From assembly GCA_011319805.1 (NCBI GenBank), contig SJRY01000004.1:124001-188000 (forward strand): 64,000 bases of DNA. The letters are read 5' to 3'. The notes under the pieces are model-generated. The model saw nothing but the letters and a program-made list of their open reading frames with translations, ran no database searches and was not told the DNA's origin. The first letter of the stretch is position 1. Each line of letters starts with the position of its first letter. Shown piece by piece: positions 10,015 through 56,016 of the stretch. The DNA comes from Macrocybe gigantea (lineage: Eukaryota > Basidiomycota > Agaricomycetes > Agaricales > Callistosporiaceae). A program made the position numbers and the translations under genes.

Positions 10015-12516
10015 TCAGGCCTGAACTTTGATCTGCGGAGAGGTGATCAGTCGGCTTTGAACGACCGACAGTGGAAAAGCCTCACCATGCTAGTCTTTTT
10101 CATGCGCAAACGGCCGCCTCCCGCAGTCGATTTCGTCGCCGTCGCCTTCGCAGCATCAGCACTGGTTCCAGCATGATTTTCCGGCACATCCGCCGGGTTT
10201 TGGCTGAGGTCGCTTGAGGTGTTCTGCGCTTCGGAGGCTTTGGAATTCTTCGGCATCAGCTAGTAATGACATCGTTAAACGAAACAATGAGTTGTATCTC
10301 TGTCAAGCTGTACTTACTGACTCAAGTTGTTTCCGCAGTTCTTCATTCTATGTAGGGAATACATTGAGACAATCACCGAATGAACAACGTTCGGTGAGCA
10401 CACAGCAGACACCACATGATGGTGAAGAGCTTGGAACGTACCTCCTTCTCCTTCTGACGGATCTGTCAGAATGGAAATTGAGTTCACGTGTGGAGTCACA
10501 TGGCGAAATGCGTACTGACCTCAGCATCCTTCTGCGCCATCTATAATACCAAGATCCATGTTAATCAACAGATCAATCAAATATAATGGAATGCGTACCT
10601 CTTTATCCTTCGCCTTAACGAAGCCTTGCATCTGAAACATAGCGGATGTAAAAGACAAATGAGAACCTCGCAGAACGGAATGCATACCTCTTCGACGATA
10701 CCTTTCATCTGAAACATAGCGGATGTATAAAAGACAAATGAGAACCTCGCAGAACGGAATGCATACCTCTTCATCCTTCGCCTTGACGATACCTTGCATC
10801 TGAAACATAGCGGATGTAAAAGATAAATGAGAAGCTCGCAGAAACGGAATGCAAACCTCTTCGTCCTTCGCCTTGACGATACCCTTGACGATACCTTTCA
10901 TCTGAAACATAGCGGATGTATAAAAGACAAATGAGAACCTCGCAGAACGGAATGCATACCTCTTCATCCTTCGCCTTGACGATACCTTTCATCTGAAACA
11001 TAGCGGATGTATAAAAGACAAATGAGAACCTCGCAGAAACGGAATGCATACCTCTTCATCCTTCGCCTTAATGAAGCCTTGTATCTGAAACATAGCGTAT
11101 GTAAAAAAGGCAAACGAGAAGCTCATAAAATGGAACGCGTACCTCTTCGTCCTTCGCCTTGACGAAGCCTTGCATCTGAAACATAGCGGATGTAAAAGAC
11201 AAATGAGAAGCTCGCAGAAACGGAATGCATACCTCTTCATCCTTTGCCTTAATCTGAAACATAGCGGATGTAAAAGACAAATGAGAAGCTCGCAGAAACG
11301 GAATGCATACCTCTTCATCCTTCGCCTTAATCTGAAACATAGCGGATGTAAAAGACAAATGAGAAGCTCACAGAACGGAATGCATACCTCTTCGTCCTTC
11401 GCCTTAATCTGAAACATAGCGTACGTAAAAAAGGCAAAAGAGAAGCTCATAAAATGGAACGCGTACCTAAAACGTATGAGTAAGGCGGAAAGGTCTGGAC
11501 CGAATACACTCACCTGACGATTAACCCTTCCGATCTGAATTGCACAGATAGCTTTGATGAGTAAATTCGTAAAAAGCTAGAGTGCGAGGCTTACCTTTTG
11601 TTCTTCAAATTTTTTAACCTCCTTCCAGAAATCGATATGACCGACGTCTATCGCGGTATGCCACAGCTTGAAGCCAAGTGGACCGTAGCACGAATGGGGA
11701 TCATATTCCTCCGATTCGGTGACTTTGACGTTCGGAAACTGTTGCCTTAGGATGCCGCATACGACTCCGGCATACCAATAGCAGTTCTCTTTGAAGACAT
11801 TATAATATTCGTTGTGGTCACAGACGGCTTGCGCGAGGACAACGAGCTGGTAATAATAAAGTGGGACGTTGTTATCACCGAATTCGAGAGTCAACACTTG
11901 CACGTCGCCGGAAGGGGGATGATCGAGGCCAGATATCTTGTCATTGGCATAGTTATTTGGCTTGATTGAGTCGGACGAACGGGATGAAGGCCAGTCCGAG
12001 GCGAACATGCTTCGTTTCGGGGTCGGCTCATCCGGCTGCTCGTCGTTCTGCTTGTTGTCCTGCTTGTTGTCCTGCTTGTTGTCCTGCTTGTTGTTCTGCT
12101 TGTTGTCCTGCTTGTTGTCCTGCTTGTTGTCCTGCTTGTTGTCCTGCTTGTTGTCCTGCTTGTTCTGCTCGTTGTCAGCGCAGCCTTTCGATCCTCATCA
12201 AGGATGAGGTGCAGTCTGCCGCTTCGACCCATGCGACTAGGTATTCATGCTGAGGAGGGCGTAGTGCAGCCATGTTCTTGTAGAGAACAACCTTCGAGAC
12301 TCGAAGAGCTCGAGCCGCCTCGCGAGATTCTTCGGCGTAGTATCCGGCCAACGTATCCCGGAAGACGCGGATGGAGGCTTCGCTCAGCGCCCCGCTTTCA
12401 GAGCGAAGGAGATAGTTTGGATATTTCGCAGCGGTGCTGGTGGCCATCCCTAGCGCTTTGAGAATAGGGTAGATGAGTGAGTAGAGGTGCTTGCTGAGGT
12501 TGTCGAGTCTGAACAT
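10015..12516 (-). CDS. Helix-array protein with an NCYW(Y/F)A-motif domain and tandem micro-exons
   Basis: A predicted protein of about 478 residues, from roughly 18 exons, all in phase 0. Exon 1 starts at 12516 and ends at 12238 or 12229. Exon 2 starts near 12167 and ends at 11595, beginning with a DNKQ repeat. Its globular part carries LYYYQLVVLAQAV and ENCYWYAGVV, marks I recall from uncharacterised Agaricomycete proteins. The Cys after Asn, with His in PPQHEYLVAW, recalls papain-like NlpC/LRAT folds, which is inference only. After FWKEVKKFEEQK come exon 11534-11514, ten array exons (11408-10599), then 10540-10520, 10462-10442, 10347-10318, 10259-10086 and 10032-10015 with stop TGA. The array encodes 98 charged helical residues. 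The exon 1/2 junction is the weakest point. A TATA element lies at 12541-12548. Confidence 0.75.
10599..11513 (-). repeat. Tandem array of exon-intron units, ten micro-exons
   Basis: Ten near-identical units of about 78-103 bases, each one complete exon plus one complete intron. Exons, from the 5' end of the gene: 11408-11388, 11331-11311 and 11253-11233 (21 bases each), 11175-11143, 11084-11052 and 10992-10960 (33 each), 10901-10857 (45), 10799-10767 (33), 10708-10688 (21) and 10631-10599 (33). They encode IKAKDEE (7 residues), MQGFVKAKDEE or variants (11) and one 15-residue unit. Introns are 56-59 bases, with donors gtatgc, gtacgc or gtttgc and acceptor tatgtttcag. The intron 11513-11409 is 105 bases and appears to contain a unit whose exon was lost. 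Confidence 0.92.
12051..12158 (-). repeat. 12-base minisatellite, nine units, coding for a DNKQ tract
   Basis: Nine head-to-tail copies of cttgttgtcctg (plus strand), one with a single change, followed by a partial copy. Because the unit is 12 bases the reading frame is kept, and the gene on the minus strand reads (DNKQ)n, a polar and probably disordered linker. Length variation between strains would be expected. Confidence 0.95.
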
Positions 12517-26687: not shown

Positions 26688-26998
26688 AGGGCATCCATGG
26701 CATTAATTTATGTATCATGATCGCTGCATTGCCGAGTGGACAGGCATCACCTCTGTTTCGAACGGCAGTGGTAAATGGCCATGTGTCGTCCGTATTCACG
26801 ATAGGGAAAATGACGCCGGATAAAAAGCGACAGCCGTCAAGTCACCGAGCCTTATAACTTACACGCGCATTTGCCGTTGTTTGGTGCACGACTCTCATCC
26901 GCCAGATGTGAGAAGGTCATAAGTAAGTCAAAAACGAGTATGCAGAATCTAGCCAAGTTGACTCTTTTATATACATGCCCAAAGGACATCGATCTGCG

Positions 26999-29900
26999 AT
27001 GTCAAGCCTCGACCCGGAAATGAAAGCTTTTCAATTTACTACCGACGAGACCTCTGCAGATGACCCAGCATTTTTGTCAAAGCAAGTACTGCTAGCAGAG
27101 TCATTCCTCTCCAAATATCTCCAGCGTTCCGCCGACCCGAAAGATCTTGAGCTGTCTTTCGAATATGCCAAGTCTGCTCTCGACCGCACCCATCCTAGAT
27201 CTGTCGATCTGCCGAGCAGACAAATGCTTCTAGCGCAGATCTGTACGGAGCGGTATAAGCACTCTCATGACTCCACAGAATCTGACGCTGCAGTGGGACT
27301 TGGTCAGCAAGCGGTCAGTTCTACCTTCCTTGGGGATCCTAGACTCGCGCATCGACTCGACTGCCTCGGCGCCATCTACAGAGACAGGTTCGATGCATTT
27401 GAAAACGCAAAGGACATGGACGCTGGGATCAGATGCAGCTTAGGCTCCGTTGAGGGTACCCCTCATGGAGACCCCGATTTGCCTACCAGACAGTGCAATT
27501 TGGCGGCTTGGTCTGGAAGACGATATGGCCGTCACAACGAAATCTCTGATCTGAAGAGTTTGATGCAATATGCCGGACGAGCGATCGACGCGCTTCCTTT
27601 AGGTAGCCGCGAGCTGCACACTCCGCTGAGAATGATCGGGAGAGCTTTTGCTCACCGTTACAAGAGGTCTCGCGACTTGAACGACATCGAAATAAGCCTC
27701 AAATTCAACACGGCTGCCCTGGCCAGCACGTTTCCGGACGACCGTCGACTGTCACATAGCCTGCAGAGTTTGAGCACGGCGTATACAACTAGGTTTCGAC
27801 GTCTACGGAACACCTCGGATCTCTTAGATTCCCTTGCTTATGCTCAGCTAGCGGTAGAACAAACAGCTGCCACCGATCCTTACCTTCCTAACCGCCTGAA
27901 TACGCTAGCCGACATATATACCAACTGTCATCGACACCTGCATGACTTCTCTAGCCGCGACTTTGCTTCCAAATGGACTCGCCTATCCCTTTGGAAGGTA
28001 TTAACTCACCCCGGTTCGTTAGAAAATGGACCTTCTGTGCCTCGCATCAATATGAGCGGAGTGAAGTTCCTGGATGCCGCTCTGAAATGTCGCCAAAGTG
28101 CCGTGGATAACACTCCCCAAGGACATCCAGCTCTGCCGCGCCGACGAGCCGACCTTGTGGGGACTTACATGAAATACTATGAACAATCCGGAGACTTGAG
28201 CTATCTGGAATTAGCTATGAAGTACAGCCAAGATTTGTTGGACAGCACTCCATCGGATCATCCAGACTTGCCGGAGCAGCAGCAGAGGTTGGCTGATGTG
28301 TATGCAGAACGATATACCGGTCTGGGTGATTGGAGGGACTTGGAGATATGCACGAACTTGAGTAGGGCAGCTGTCGAAGGCACGCCACCCGGCCACTCAC
28401 GCCTCGCCAAGCGGCAGGCCAATCTTGGGGCCAGATACGTGTACCGATATAGAGAAGTCCCTAACGAAGCAGATCTGGACGAAGGGTTGAGGTGGTTGAA
28501 AATGGCTCTGGATAGCACGCCGGTCGGAGATCCCAATCTAGCTCAGCGACGATTCAGCGTTGCATACGCGTATCTTCAGCGGTTCAAGACGCTGGGCAAT
28601 TTTCCGGATTTAGATGCGGCAGAACGATACAATCAGGCTGCCGTGAATGCGACACACGAGGGACATCATGCTTTGCCTGGATTCTTGGAAACCTTGTCGA
28701 TGATACACGCTTACCGGTATGCTCATACGCAAGAGGCAATGTATTTGGAAACGTGGTTGAAATATGCTCAGTCCGCAGTGGACAAGACGCCAGTCGCCAA
28801 CCCCGACCTTGCACCCAGGCAAGGAAACCTCGGTCTATGTTACGAGACCCGATACAAAAAGGCCGGCGAAGTGGAGGACCTGGAAAAGGCCTTACAGGCA
28901 TGTCGCTCTGCAGTCCAAGTGCCGTCCATCTCTCCATCGACGCTCTGGTTTGAAGCGGTACGGTGGGGGAAAATGGCATTTCGAGCAAAACGGGAGGAAG
29001 CCGTAGAAGCTTTTTCCGTTGCTTTCACTGCGCTCCCGGATGTTGTCTGGCTCGGAAATGCCGTCGCTACAAGGCATCGAGTGTTGCAGCAGGACGCAGT
29101 TCCGCTGGCCTCCTCTATGGGTGTTGCTGCTGCTCTGGACTATTCTACACCGCAGAAAGCGATCGAATTTTTCGAAGCCGCCGTTTCGATAACGCATAAA
29201 CAAACCATTCAGCTCAAAACCGGGGACGCGCTACTGTGGGATGTGTTTCCAGATGATGCAAAAGCACTCCGAGATATTTCGACGCAACTCCAGATAGCAG
29301 CCAAGACTGAAGAAACGGAGATTAACCTGTCAATCGACCCACACGTTCTGGTTCGGAGGAGGAAGGAATTGATCGCCGACATACGAACTAGACCTGGATT
29401 CGGAAAATTCCTTCTGCCGCCGTCATGGGACACGATTGCGACTGTCGCGCGCGAAGGACCTGTCGTTGTTCTCACTGCCACGTCTGCTAGGAGCGATGCA
29501 ATTATACTGCTTCCCAATCAAGAGAGTCCGGAACACGTAGCACTGAGGGGCGTGACCCTTGAGAAGCTTTATGACATGCTCACCAAACTGAGAAAGGCTT
29601 TGGCACAGTGCCGAATTACATCTAGAGACGCCATAGAAAGACGCGAGCAGGCGATTAAGAGATACGGCAGGAAGATCGATGTAGAGTCATCGAGTGACAC
29701 CTTTCGAACAGTGCTTGATTGGCTGTGGATCCAGGTCGTCTCGCCAGTTTTCGAATGCCTCCGCTCGGTGGGTGGTGGTTATTCCTTCCATCGCATCCGA
29801 GACCGATGACAAACAATTTCAGAATGGCATTGAGCGTGGAAGAATATGGTGGTGTGCTTCCGGCCCATTCACATATCTGCCGCTACACGCATCAGCGCCA

Positions 29901-30626
29901 ATCCAAAGTGATTTCATACAGTCGTATACTTACACGCTGGAATCCCTCATCCGCGCACGAGAGCGCAACAAGGCGGCAAGACCTGCTGACGATTTGAACA
30001 GGACGATCATCGCAGTTGGAGTATCGAACGCAGCCAGACTTCCGCCTCTTCCTAAACTGCCCGCGGTCAGACGAGAAGTCGAAGGGGTAGCGACCTTGGT
30101 AAACCAGTCGGGAATATTGAATGCCAAATTATTCGCAGACACGCAGGCGACACGCTCGAATGTCCTTCACCATCTGCGGCACGCCAGCTGGCTGCACTTT
30201 GCCTGTCACGGAGAGCAGGACCCCGAGAAGCCGCTGGACAGCGGACTGGAGCTATACGACCGGCGATTGAAGCTGAGCGAGATCATGGACGCGAACATTT
30301 TCGATGCGGCCGAGTTTGTGTATCTCTCGGCCTGTCAAACAGCCATGGGTGATGCAAAACTCAGCAACGAAGCTATGCACCTGGTTGGCGGATTCATGGC
30401 GGCTGGATTCAGGGGTGCAGTCGGCACACTGTGGAGTATCAGTGATTCGTATGGTCCAAAAGTCGCTTCGAGCGTGTACAGAAAGATCTTCAGCGACAAT
30501 GGTGGTGATGGTGCAAGGCCAAAGTTGGACCTTGCAGCTGAAGGACTGCAGGATGCAGTCAACGATATGAGAAGGAGAGGAGCGGAATACCACGAGTGGA
30601 TACCGTTCATTCACGTCGGAATATGA
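26999..30626 (+). CDS. TPR-CHAT protein: tetratricopeptide-like repeats plus caspase-like CHAT protease domain
   Basis: About 1190 residues in two exons, 26999-29767 and 29823-30626. The first 700 or so residues are spaced TPR-like repeats of about 50 residues (pattern: LELAMKYSQDLLDSTPSDHP, then LPEQQQRLADVYAERY). A linker follows, and then the C-terminal CHAT domain: WWCASGPFTYLPLHA, WLHFACHGEQD with the catalytic His (codon 30207-30209), FVYLSACQTA with the catalytic Cys (30333-30335), GFRGAVGTLWSI and the end WIPFIHVGI. CHAT domains are clan CD cysteine peptidases related to caspases; fungal substrates are mostly unknown. A tttatatac element touches the first in-frame ATG (26975), so the next ATG at 26999 is preferred. 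Both catalytic residues are present and no break was seen. Confidence 0.9.
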
Positions 30627-54007: not shown

Positions 54008-56016
54008 CTACAGCCTTACCCCTTGGTCTGGGACAGGAGGCGACGCGCCAGTTCCCACCATGACCTCCACTCCTTCGCTACTCACGTCGTCGATCGTCAC
54101 ATAAATGTACGCAGGACCGGGTGGATAAATTCTGTTGTTCGGCGGACTCCTGATCCTGAGCGAGCGCCGATCTGGGGACAGCTGTGCCTCCATGAAGACG
54201 AGCAGCGAGCTGGAATGGAACGCGTGCGAGGAAAAGCCAAGGTCCATCAGCGCGACTGCGGGATAAGAGAGTCGGGTCATCACTCGTGATACTAGAATGA
54301 GAATATGAGAATCACCTTTCAAGTTTGATGTCCTCAAATTGGGAGGGACGGAGATGCTCATTGTGAATTGAGCATTGTATAGGATCTTTTTGGGCGCATT
54401 CAAGATTCTTGGGCGGGCGACGGTCATGTAAGGTGGGTTGAGGTACTCGACCCGGAATTCGCTGAGTAAAGGTGAGCAGCTCAGCAGACGTGTGAGGAAT
54501 GTTTGAGCTCACGTATTGTAACGCGTGGTGTTAACAACGTCTGGGTTCGGATTGGATCCTGCGATGAAAATATTGCTGAACAGCGAATGTCGGTCACTTA
54601 TGCGCGAGAATGGACAGCCAGCAAAGTTACCCTTTTGGAGTCAAAGTGGCCACTGAATGATACACTCGCGCAATTTCAGACGTAGGCATGCCTTTGTTGC
54701 TGATGCGATGGCCTGGTCGTGCATCAGGAGTGTAGAGCGATGGCGTGTACCTATTGCGAAGGTGAAAAGATAAGTACCGTTAGGGACAATTAAACGCGAG
54801 CATTGAGGTACTTACGCAGGATGGTCGGCATTCGAGTTGCCAATCGGATCCGAAACGGATGCATACGCTGCATAGCCTGTCTGCGCGCCATTCACAATCA
54901 GGACCTGGCCATTAGGCAGCAGGATCATCTCAGGCATCATGCGCGGCTCCAGCATATACTCGATCTCCCACCCTTTCTGTATCCCAGCGGGCGTCAGCGT
55001 CATGCGGCTGCACTGGCTGGACGCAGGGTCTTGCGAGGATAGGCTCTCCGATGGCGCTTTGTCACTGGTGTTTGTACCTCCGCAGATGAGGACTTCAGGG
55101 ATATAGAGCGGCGGTGAGAGCGGCAGGAGTGTCGCCGTTCCGTCGAAGGGATTCGTTACGCGCACGCCATTGGGAATGTCCGGAAGGACAAGTTCGGTAT
55201 TTTTCTCCACGTCGTAAATGATGGTCTGGTTGTTGGAAGCCATGAACACTCTGCCGTCTGGAAGAGCGATCGTCCTGGGAAACATATTCGCAGGAAGGGT
55301 GCGCTCAAGGAACGGCGAAGATCTGGGGATACCGCCGTCTTTGGGAGGAAAGAATTCGATGCTGTTGGCCGGGTCGGTGTTGTAAAAGAGTGTCGCTTCC
55401 CTATTTCCGCCTACCACCATCTGCCGCGGGTGTAACTAGCGTCAAGTCAGCAAAACGGAATGAAAGCGTAGTCCTTACAAGCGAGCCATCAAAAATCCGC
55501 AAGGATGAAGGATACCACCTCGGCTCGACCAAGTGTAGATTGACAGGATCTTCAATGAGGGGACATCCGTCTCCTGCAGGGTTGGAACAAGGCCCAAAGA
55601 ATCTGAGTGCCTGTCGGCCGTCCTCTGCTTCAGGAATGACAGGAGCGTTTCCTCCGACACTGACCTGCGTGCAGTGAGTACACGTGAGGCTGAACAACAA
55701 AATAAGCACACACCATCGTTCCGTTGCTCAAGAAACCACCAGACGCGCAGAACGAGTCTGAAACGACGTCTAGTGCAGTGGCGGTATTCGTCTCAAAGTT
55801 CCACAATGCGCCCCAGGCCGGATGGCCATTGACAGTGAGCGGATCGTTGCTTGCGATGTCAAAGATGATGGCAAGAGTCGGCGAAACGACCATCGCTTCA
55901 AGTGCCAACACGCCCGTAGTTCCGTTTTGCACGAAATGCCATCCAAGTCCCCTCCCATGGCTGAGAGTTGCTGAAGCAGCGAGGAGAGGGAGCGTGCGAT
56001 GAGACAACCTTACCAT
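54008..56016 (-). CDS. Copper radical oxidase (glyoxal oxidase type)
   Basis: Secreted enzyme of about 560 residues that oxidises aldehydes to acids and yields hydrogen peroxide, typical of wood and litter decay fungi. Seven exons; the first three are 56016-55714, 55664-55479 and 55420-54816, and the last ends at 54008. A signal peptide is followed by [20 protein letters not shown] and the cofactor Cys region [15 protein letters not shown]. Then come [15 protein letters not shown], kelch-type blades ([30 protein letters not shown]), the [15 protein letters not shown] copper-ligand His and the C-terminal DUF1929-like domain with GFSSHAFHS. The Cys, Tyr and His positions expected for the radical copper site are present. 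A tatata element lies at 56077-56082. No frame break was seen. Confidence 0.92.

Follow-up and report, generated by a model that had tools for sequence, protein, structure and literature searches.

The described genes nearest to the one analysed here are the BG genes of the chicken, butyrophilin-related genes of the major histocompatibility complex (MHC) that encode an immunoglobulin variable (Ig-V) domain, a transmembrane region and a tail of heptads, presumed to form a coiled coil and spread over many exons of 21 nucleotides (nt), some of them 18 or 24 nt (PMC4046983, PMC5938342). Between 13 and 36 tail exons per gene were predicted in one haplotype, residues are split at exon ends so that the BG exons are not phase 0, and hybrid genes, in which the 5' and 3' ends have been swapped, are attributed to unequal crossing-over or deletion (PMC4046983, PMC5938342). 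Reading can continue in frame through some of the introns (PMC4046983). Here we describe a gene of similar build, with ten predicted tandem micro-exons of 21, 33 or 45 nt, in the fungus Macrocybe gigantea (assembly GCA_011319805.1, contig SJRY01000004.1, positions 124,001-188,000 of the forward strand); this stretch of 64,000 nt is called the window, and coordinates given without a prefix are counted within it. A previous reading of the same DNA, the original prediction, knew of no described gene with such an arrangement, which the chicken BG genes in fact have (PMC4046983, PMC5938342).

The likeness extends over several features. In both systems a globular domain is followed by a tail of tandem micro-exons of about one helical repeat each; the fungal copies also vary in unit number (10, 5, 2 and 2) and show shifting relatedness along the gene, and introns readable in frame are found in the window array too. 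There are also differences. Residues are split between BG exons whereas the fungal exons are all phase 0; the fungal units mix three lengths of 7, 11 or 15 residues, exons of 21 nt making up only 4 of the 10 and the others being 33 or 45 nt, and the ten array exons are accompanied by four flanking short ones. The BG genes carry an Ig-V domain, whereas Pfam scans of the fungal genes (exon 1 of two copies, C4:44k and C18, and ten members of the wider superfamily) listed no Ig family. Because no Ig domain was found we call the fungal array an apparently convergent variant of the BG design, one that would work like the BG tails and is apparently not a member of their family.

Other gene families share single traits with the array. 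The 54-base-pair (bp) exons of fibrillar collagen genes have a length equal to a whole number of structural repeats, but these repeats are Gly-X-Y triplets and the exons have long diverged. Tandem exons of Schistosoma mansoni reportedly encode 81-base repeats, as Davis and colleagues are said to have described in 1988; tandem exons there encode a protein repeat as in the fungal array, with a unit of 81 bases. The micro-exon genes (MEGs) of schistosomes, whose exons are mostly not near-identical copies, also have short symmetric exons in runs, and these hold most of the coding sequence, but the fungal introns are 56-59 nt long and most of the fungal coding sequence lies in one large exon. In the MEGs the introns span 100 to almost 5000 bp, a pattern of exon lengths is repeated in MEG-26, the products are secreted or membrane-anchored almost without exception, and protein variation by alternative splicing has been proposed (PMC5825161, PMC10526429). 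Near-identical introns within one genome, fungi included, have been described as introners and introner-like elements (PMC4457414, PMC9860276); these insert into many genes, whereas the introns of the fungal array matched only four array genes. In our literature search we noticed no fungal gene with a micro-exon array like this one, which is not proof of absence from print, and the identification of micro-exons in fungi has been called relatively limited (PMC11121469, introduction, 2024).

Results

We read the window gene as one copy of a small recombining fungal family in which a CYWYA-type domain is followed by a probable coiled-coil tail encoded in phase-0 micro-exons, and on the sequence evidence we give this reading a probability of about 0.72. 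The array occupies 10599-11408 on the minus strand and consists of ten exon-like units with lengths, in order, of 21, 21, 21, 33, 33, 33, 45, 33, 21 and 33 nt (four of 21, five of 33 and one of 45 nt), every one divisible by three, in phase 0 and free of stop codons (0 of 10). The nine introns between them measure 56, 57, 57, 58, 59, 58, 57, 58 and 56 nt in order, and all run from GT to TTTCAG. From splice sites the ten exons, all on the minus strand, read as follows.

11388-11408, minus: array exon 1, IKAKDEE
11311-11331, minus: array exon 2, IKAKDEE
11233-11253, minus: array exon 3, IKAKDEE
11143-11175, minus: array exon 4, MQGFVKAKDEE
11052-11084, minus: array exon 5, IQGFIKAKDEE
10960-10992, minus: array exon 6, MKGIVKAKDEE
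10857-10901, minus: array exon 7, MKGIVKGIVKAKDEE, with an internal duplication of 12 nt
10767-10799, minus: array exon 8, MQGIVKAKDEE
10688-10708, minus: array exon 9, MKGIVEE, 12 nt shorter
10599-10631, minus: array exon 10, MQGFVKAKDKE

The repeated unit of the array is exon plus intron together. Tandem Repeats Finder (TRF) reported periods of 91 (6.0 copies, score 775), 78 (3.5 copies, score 476) and 79 nt (2.9 copies, score 317), scores far above its reporting threshold of 50. The original prediction thus holds for the coordinates, lengths and phase of the ten units, for their near-identical introns of 56-59 nt and for the composite nature of the repeat, which both the unit sequences and TRF bear out; it had drawn the range as 10599-11513, of which the part from 11513 to 11409 is a leading intron of 105 nt. 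All ten intron-plus-exon units are mutually distinct in sequence, which argues against a simple duplication by assembly. The repeats differ in steps of 12 nt and comprise IKAKDEE (7 residues), MQGFVKAKDEE-like (11), MKGIVKGIVKAKDEE (15) and MKGIVEE (7) types, the last shortened at a different place from IKAKDEE. Three of the introns (11254-11310, 11176-11232 and 10800-10856, minus strand) are 57 nt each and open when retained (VCIPFLRASHLSFTSAMFQ), so that their retention would insert 19 residues in frame.

We searched the whole assembly (41.2 Mb in 333 contigs) with the array DNA, very common words being skipped, and found four places: the window, C4:44752-45204 (C4:44k), C18:9510-9693 (C18) and C4:104602-104784 (C4:104k), with 10, 5, 2 and 2 units respectively. 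The near-identical introns matched at array genes only, 4 of 4, and their confinement to four paralogous loci would fit local duplication rather than intron spread. In C4:44k and C18 exon 1 is fully open, and when spliced both genes are open from the start through every micro-exon to a shared final IKVQA stop; exon 1 accounts for 846 nt of the 1287 in the spliced C4:44k sequence. In C4:104k the frame is broken within the exon-1 repeat, and one micro-exon measures 20 nt, the exception among the 19 array units of all copies, 18 of which are 21, 33 or 45 nt long, and all array introns measure 56-59 nt except one of 65. We infer that the array is spliced because the 5- and 2-unit copies stay open to the same stop when spliced, and we think that the arrangement is genuine and that at least two of the copies code for protein. 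C18:3802-20222 and C4:94000-110116 align in four main collinear pieces, about 16 kb in total at 95.7-98.3% identity, in a match that extends to the edge of the compared sequence on one side. They are possibly alleles or a recent segmental duplication, and given this near-identity the independent array loci may be three.

The array genes belong to a wider superfamily. A search with the domain of a relative returned at least 24 places, or about 22 loci when three C293 matches that seem to be a single gene are counted once; the four array genes are among them, and several of the others form near-identical pairs. Among 20 other loci (L018-L037) TRF detected a 21-nt period downstream of the domain in 11 and none in 9, and a 33-nt period in one (L030); several near-identical pairs are among the 20, and three of them are one gene. 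KKDEVIS-type heptads lie within a single uninterrupted frame in L008 and L009. Short helical repeats therefore appear to be common in the superfamily, and what sets the array genes apart is an intron in every unit. Splice sites in a distant paralog, C281, give the short phase-0 exons VGKMERMGRE (30 nt) and LRKKDAE (21 nt), followed by a longer coiled-coil-like stretch. Loci L018-L037 were also seen to have a C(Y/F)W(Y/F)A-type domain, the motif not being present in every member, and tails often with tandem repeats of 21, 33, 42 or 54 nt.

Relatedness shifts along the gene. The window copy is 96.3% identical to C4:44k and 90.8% to C18 in late exon 1; from the NEELRKQLES exon to the stop the figures are 90.9% and 96.1%, and in the 3' flank, measured over its first 300 nt, they are 74.8% and 96.3%. 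In a profile of 200-nt stretches the one just ahead of the array (11600-11401) is 98.5% identical to C18 and 94.5% to C4:44k. Taking as informative the sites at which C4:44k differs from C18 and C4:104k, with these two equal, we scored the window as C4:44k-like against C18/C4:104k-like and obtained 40:12 (2 neither) from late exon 1 to a zero-length exon in the leading intron and 13:117 on the 3' side. Fisher's test comparing late exon 1 with the 3' side gives p 2e-18, with sites treated as independent though they are not. The window differs from C4:44k by 0.7% in the proximal 5' flank and by 25% in the proximal 3' flank, which is impossible under one tree with steady divergence, so that exchange or gene conversion among the copies is needed. 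The original prediction had proposed that unequal crossing-over adds or removes units without disturbing the frame; the unit numbers and the shifting relatedness speak for this, and the 20-nt unit of C4:104k departs from it.

The window gene lies on the minus strand from the start codon at 12516 to the stop at 10015, and the following features make up the rest of it.

11595-12516, minus: exon-1-like region with start codon, N-terminal part, 12-nt repeats and ENCYWYAG domain; frame broken
12036-12164, minus: tandem repeat of 12 nt that encodes KQDN-type repeats and adjoins the frame break (TRF, 10.8 copies, 95% matches)
11577-12194, minus: open frame from stop to stop, 205 residues, with the repeats and the CYWYA domain; inferred exon end 11595
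11514-11534, minus: exon IGRVNRQ, 21 nt, phase 0, ahead of the array; counterpart in 4 of 4 copies
11409-11513, minus: leading intron, 105 nt, made of a 47-nt part (GTGAGT..TTTTAG) and a 58-nt part (GTACGC..TTTCAG)
10520-10540, minus: exon MAQKDAE, 21 nt, preceded by a diverged intron; also in the C4:44k copy
10442-10462, minus: exon IRQKEKE, 21 nt; missing from the C4:44k copy
10318-10347, minus: exon NEELRKQLES, 30 nt
10086-10259, minus: exon of 174 nt, low-complexity C-terminal part
10015-10032, minus: last exon, IKVQA and stop

The array is thus flanked by further short phase-0 exons, IGRVNRQ, MAQKDAE, IRQKEKE and NEELRKQLES, which were absent from the original prediction. The exon-1 region of the window copy is 922 nt, not a multiple of three; its N-terminal frame hits an in-frame TGA at 12177-12175 and the domain goes on in another frame. 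With this TGA and frame break the window gene is possibly a pseudogene or a form truncated at the N terminus, and the full protein may no longer come from the family member that has the longest array. The exon-1 repeat of C18 and C4:104k has a 24-nt unit in 5.8 and 13.8 copies respectively, and the frame breaks of two array genes fall in or beside the exon-1 tandem repeat.

The two parts of the leading intron meet in an AG/GT junction at 11467/11466, a zero-length exon kept in 4 of 4 copies (intron lengths 103-105 nt), which we read as the relic of a lost exon. Such a junction, known here from sequence alone, resembles a recursive splice site or an exon-loss relic. The flanking exons have changed too. 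C4:44k is without IRQKEKE and has in its place an 88-nt intron that aligns to the start of the preceding intron and the end of the following one; this composite indicates that the exon was probably lost by an intron-to-intron deletion. At the position of MAQKDAE there is an IKAKDEE-type exon in C18 and a 20-nt version of it in C4:104k, in both cases joined to the intron that in the window follows MAQKDAE. The frame is kept after the loss of IRQKEKE in C4:44k and after the joining of the C18 version of IKAKDEE.

Coiled-coil periods of 7, 11 and 15 residues fit heptads with 4-residue insertions. The array units are 7, 11 and 15 residues long and relatives have repeats of 21 and 33 nt. The charged fraction of the spliced tails is 0.52 in the window, 0.41 in C4:44k and 0.54 in C18, and their hydrophobic spectra peak at 3.65, 3.70 and 3.60 residues respectively (p 0.004-0.006 against residue shuffles). 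We consider that the charged tail probably forms an alpha helix, which would serve as a spacer or as an oligomerising coiled coil.

The domain ahead of the tail matched little. Protein searches from two queries, the spliced C4:44k protein and an alignment of ten superfamily members, returned 0 homologues at E 0.001 or better among 7999 candidates scored per query, in a collection of uncertain fungal coverage. Pfam offered no convincing family: exon 1 of C4:44k matched 0 families and that of C18 6 (best E 0.016), and the ten superfamily members gave 12 weak matches (best E 0.016). Among solved structures there was a single match to the domain, at E 5.2. A papain-like fold, to which the CYWYA motif with an upstream His bears some resemblance, was dropped, as the Cys is Phe in C18 and in the DNA of C4:104k and the searches lent no support.

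Discussion

The protein of this family would consist of an N-terminal part and a CYWYA-type domain in exon 1, followed by a charged, probably helical tail in which, in the array subfamily, a separate phase-0 micro-exon encodes each repeat, of 7, 11 or 15 residues. Exchange out of register, between units or between gene copies, would add or remove whole repeats, and no frameshift would follow because the repeated unit is exon plus intron; the loss and the joining of exons at the 3' side of the array would be two in-frame changes arising from breaks at or between introns. Going further, the fungus may have evolved a BG-type tail independently, with a rod whose length changes by whole repeats, with the zero-length exon as a relic, and with tails of differing length expressed, perhaps also by exon skipping; for this fuller version we see the odds as even.

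Several findings weigh against our reading of a recombining coiled-coil family. Frame breaks occur in 2 of the 4 array genes, the window's among them. Ratios of nonsynonymous to synonymous change (dN/dS) could be computed for five copy pairs, C18 and C4:104k having no synonymous change between them. In the domain the ratio was 0.55 for the window and C4:44k and 0.82-0.93 for the remaining pairs; the N-terminal 113 codons gave 1.18-1.41, and 4 of 5 pairs had dN above dS in the 174-nt exon. These figures give little sign of purifying selection. In a stricter control, permuting columns within units gave a hydrophobic periodicity equal to or above that of the window array in a fraction of 0.356 of cases, so the sequence does not show a helical pattern beyond what follows from the unit lengths. 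The helix claim therefore rests on unit lengths, composition and relatives, and the helical repeats of 7, 11 and 15 residues proposed in the original prediction find support in the 21-nt and, at one locus, 33-nt repeats of relatives and none in this periodicity. On the side of exchange, informative sites in the first 339 nt of exon 1 are undecided (15:13), and the count of 160:0 (1 neither) in the 5' flank carries little weight because the C18/C4:104k flank aligns only partly (61% identity to the window, mostly no BLAST match). Inside the array the nearest copy alternates between successive 200-nt stretches. As C18 and C4:104k are so alike there are effectively three sequences, from which the hybrid copy is not identifiable and the switch is not placed exactly in the array.

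The strongest competitor is a decaying pseudogene family, which once had a short coiled-coil tail and in which the window array is a neutral repeat expansion in a copy without a protein. We take this to be a serious possibility though the less probable one, and it overlaps with our preferred reading, which allows for either an active or a defunct window copy. It would account for the TGA in exon 1 of the window copy and the change of frame there, for the frame breaks of C4:104k in exon 1 and one micro-exon, and for purifying selection that is weak or absent, but two other copies, C4:44k and C18, are fully open when spliced, and all ten window units have kept a length divisible by three and no stop. 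Exon lengths argue in the same direction: outside C4:104k there are, by eye, three exon length changes, each of 12 nt, while the array introns differ by mostly 1-2 nt, a comparison of few events among units that are copies of one another. Exon lengths were used here and pairwise exon gap counts set aside because the aligner splits gaps. We gave no weight to the last seven codons, in which the pooled proportions of synonymous (pS) and nonsynonymous (pN) differences are 0.37 and 0.10, as these omit the 20-nt exon and every MKGIVEE pair and the pairs are not independent.

Two further explanations concern the introns. That the region is an unspliced, non-coding minisatellite behind a shorter gene ending in the first intron after the domain finds some backing in that intron, which when retained gives VSLAL and then a stop; we judge it improbable, since it leaves unexplained both the open spliced frames of the 5- and 2-unit copies into the same exons and stop and the short phase-0 exons of the distant paralog C281. 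Slightly more improbable still would be introner-like elements, that is, near-identical introns repeatedly inserted into an existing heptad repeat. The array introns are indeed near-identical, relatives have heptad repeats in one open frame, and such elements are described in fungi (PMC4457414), but they do not fit introns that a genome search skipping very common words found at four loci only, all array genes. Between units, moreover, exons and introns diverge to a similar degree (mismatch 0.118 and 0.100 respectively over pooled pairs of the 19 units), as expected if the whole unit was duplicated.

If our reading of a recombining family with a coiled-coil tail is correct, this would be a second, apparently independent case of a gene structure matched to coiled-coil repeats, with a rod whose length changes in whole steps. 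Having copies of 10, 5 and 2 units and relatives whose repeats do not each carry an intron in one small genome would allow the origin and turnover of such arrays to be traced stepwise, and the array is of interest too for the recognition of very small exons.

Other features of the window

Elsewhere in the window a CHAT domain is encoded at 29688-30626 on the plus strand (Pfam E 2.1e-32), beside a long open frame (26927-29809) that looks repeat-rich by eye and for which Pfam gave no match at E 0.001. One match to a fungal protein kinase lies just under the cut-off (23.2 against 24.1 bits), and a glyoxal oxidase N-terminal domain is matched at 54812-55432 on the minus strand (E 1.5e-11).

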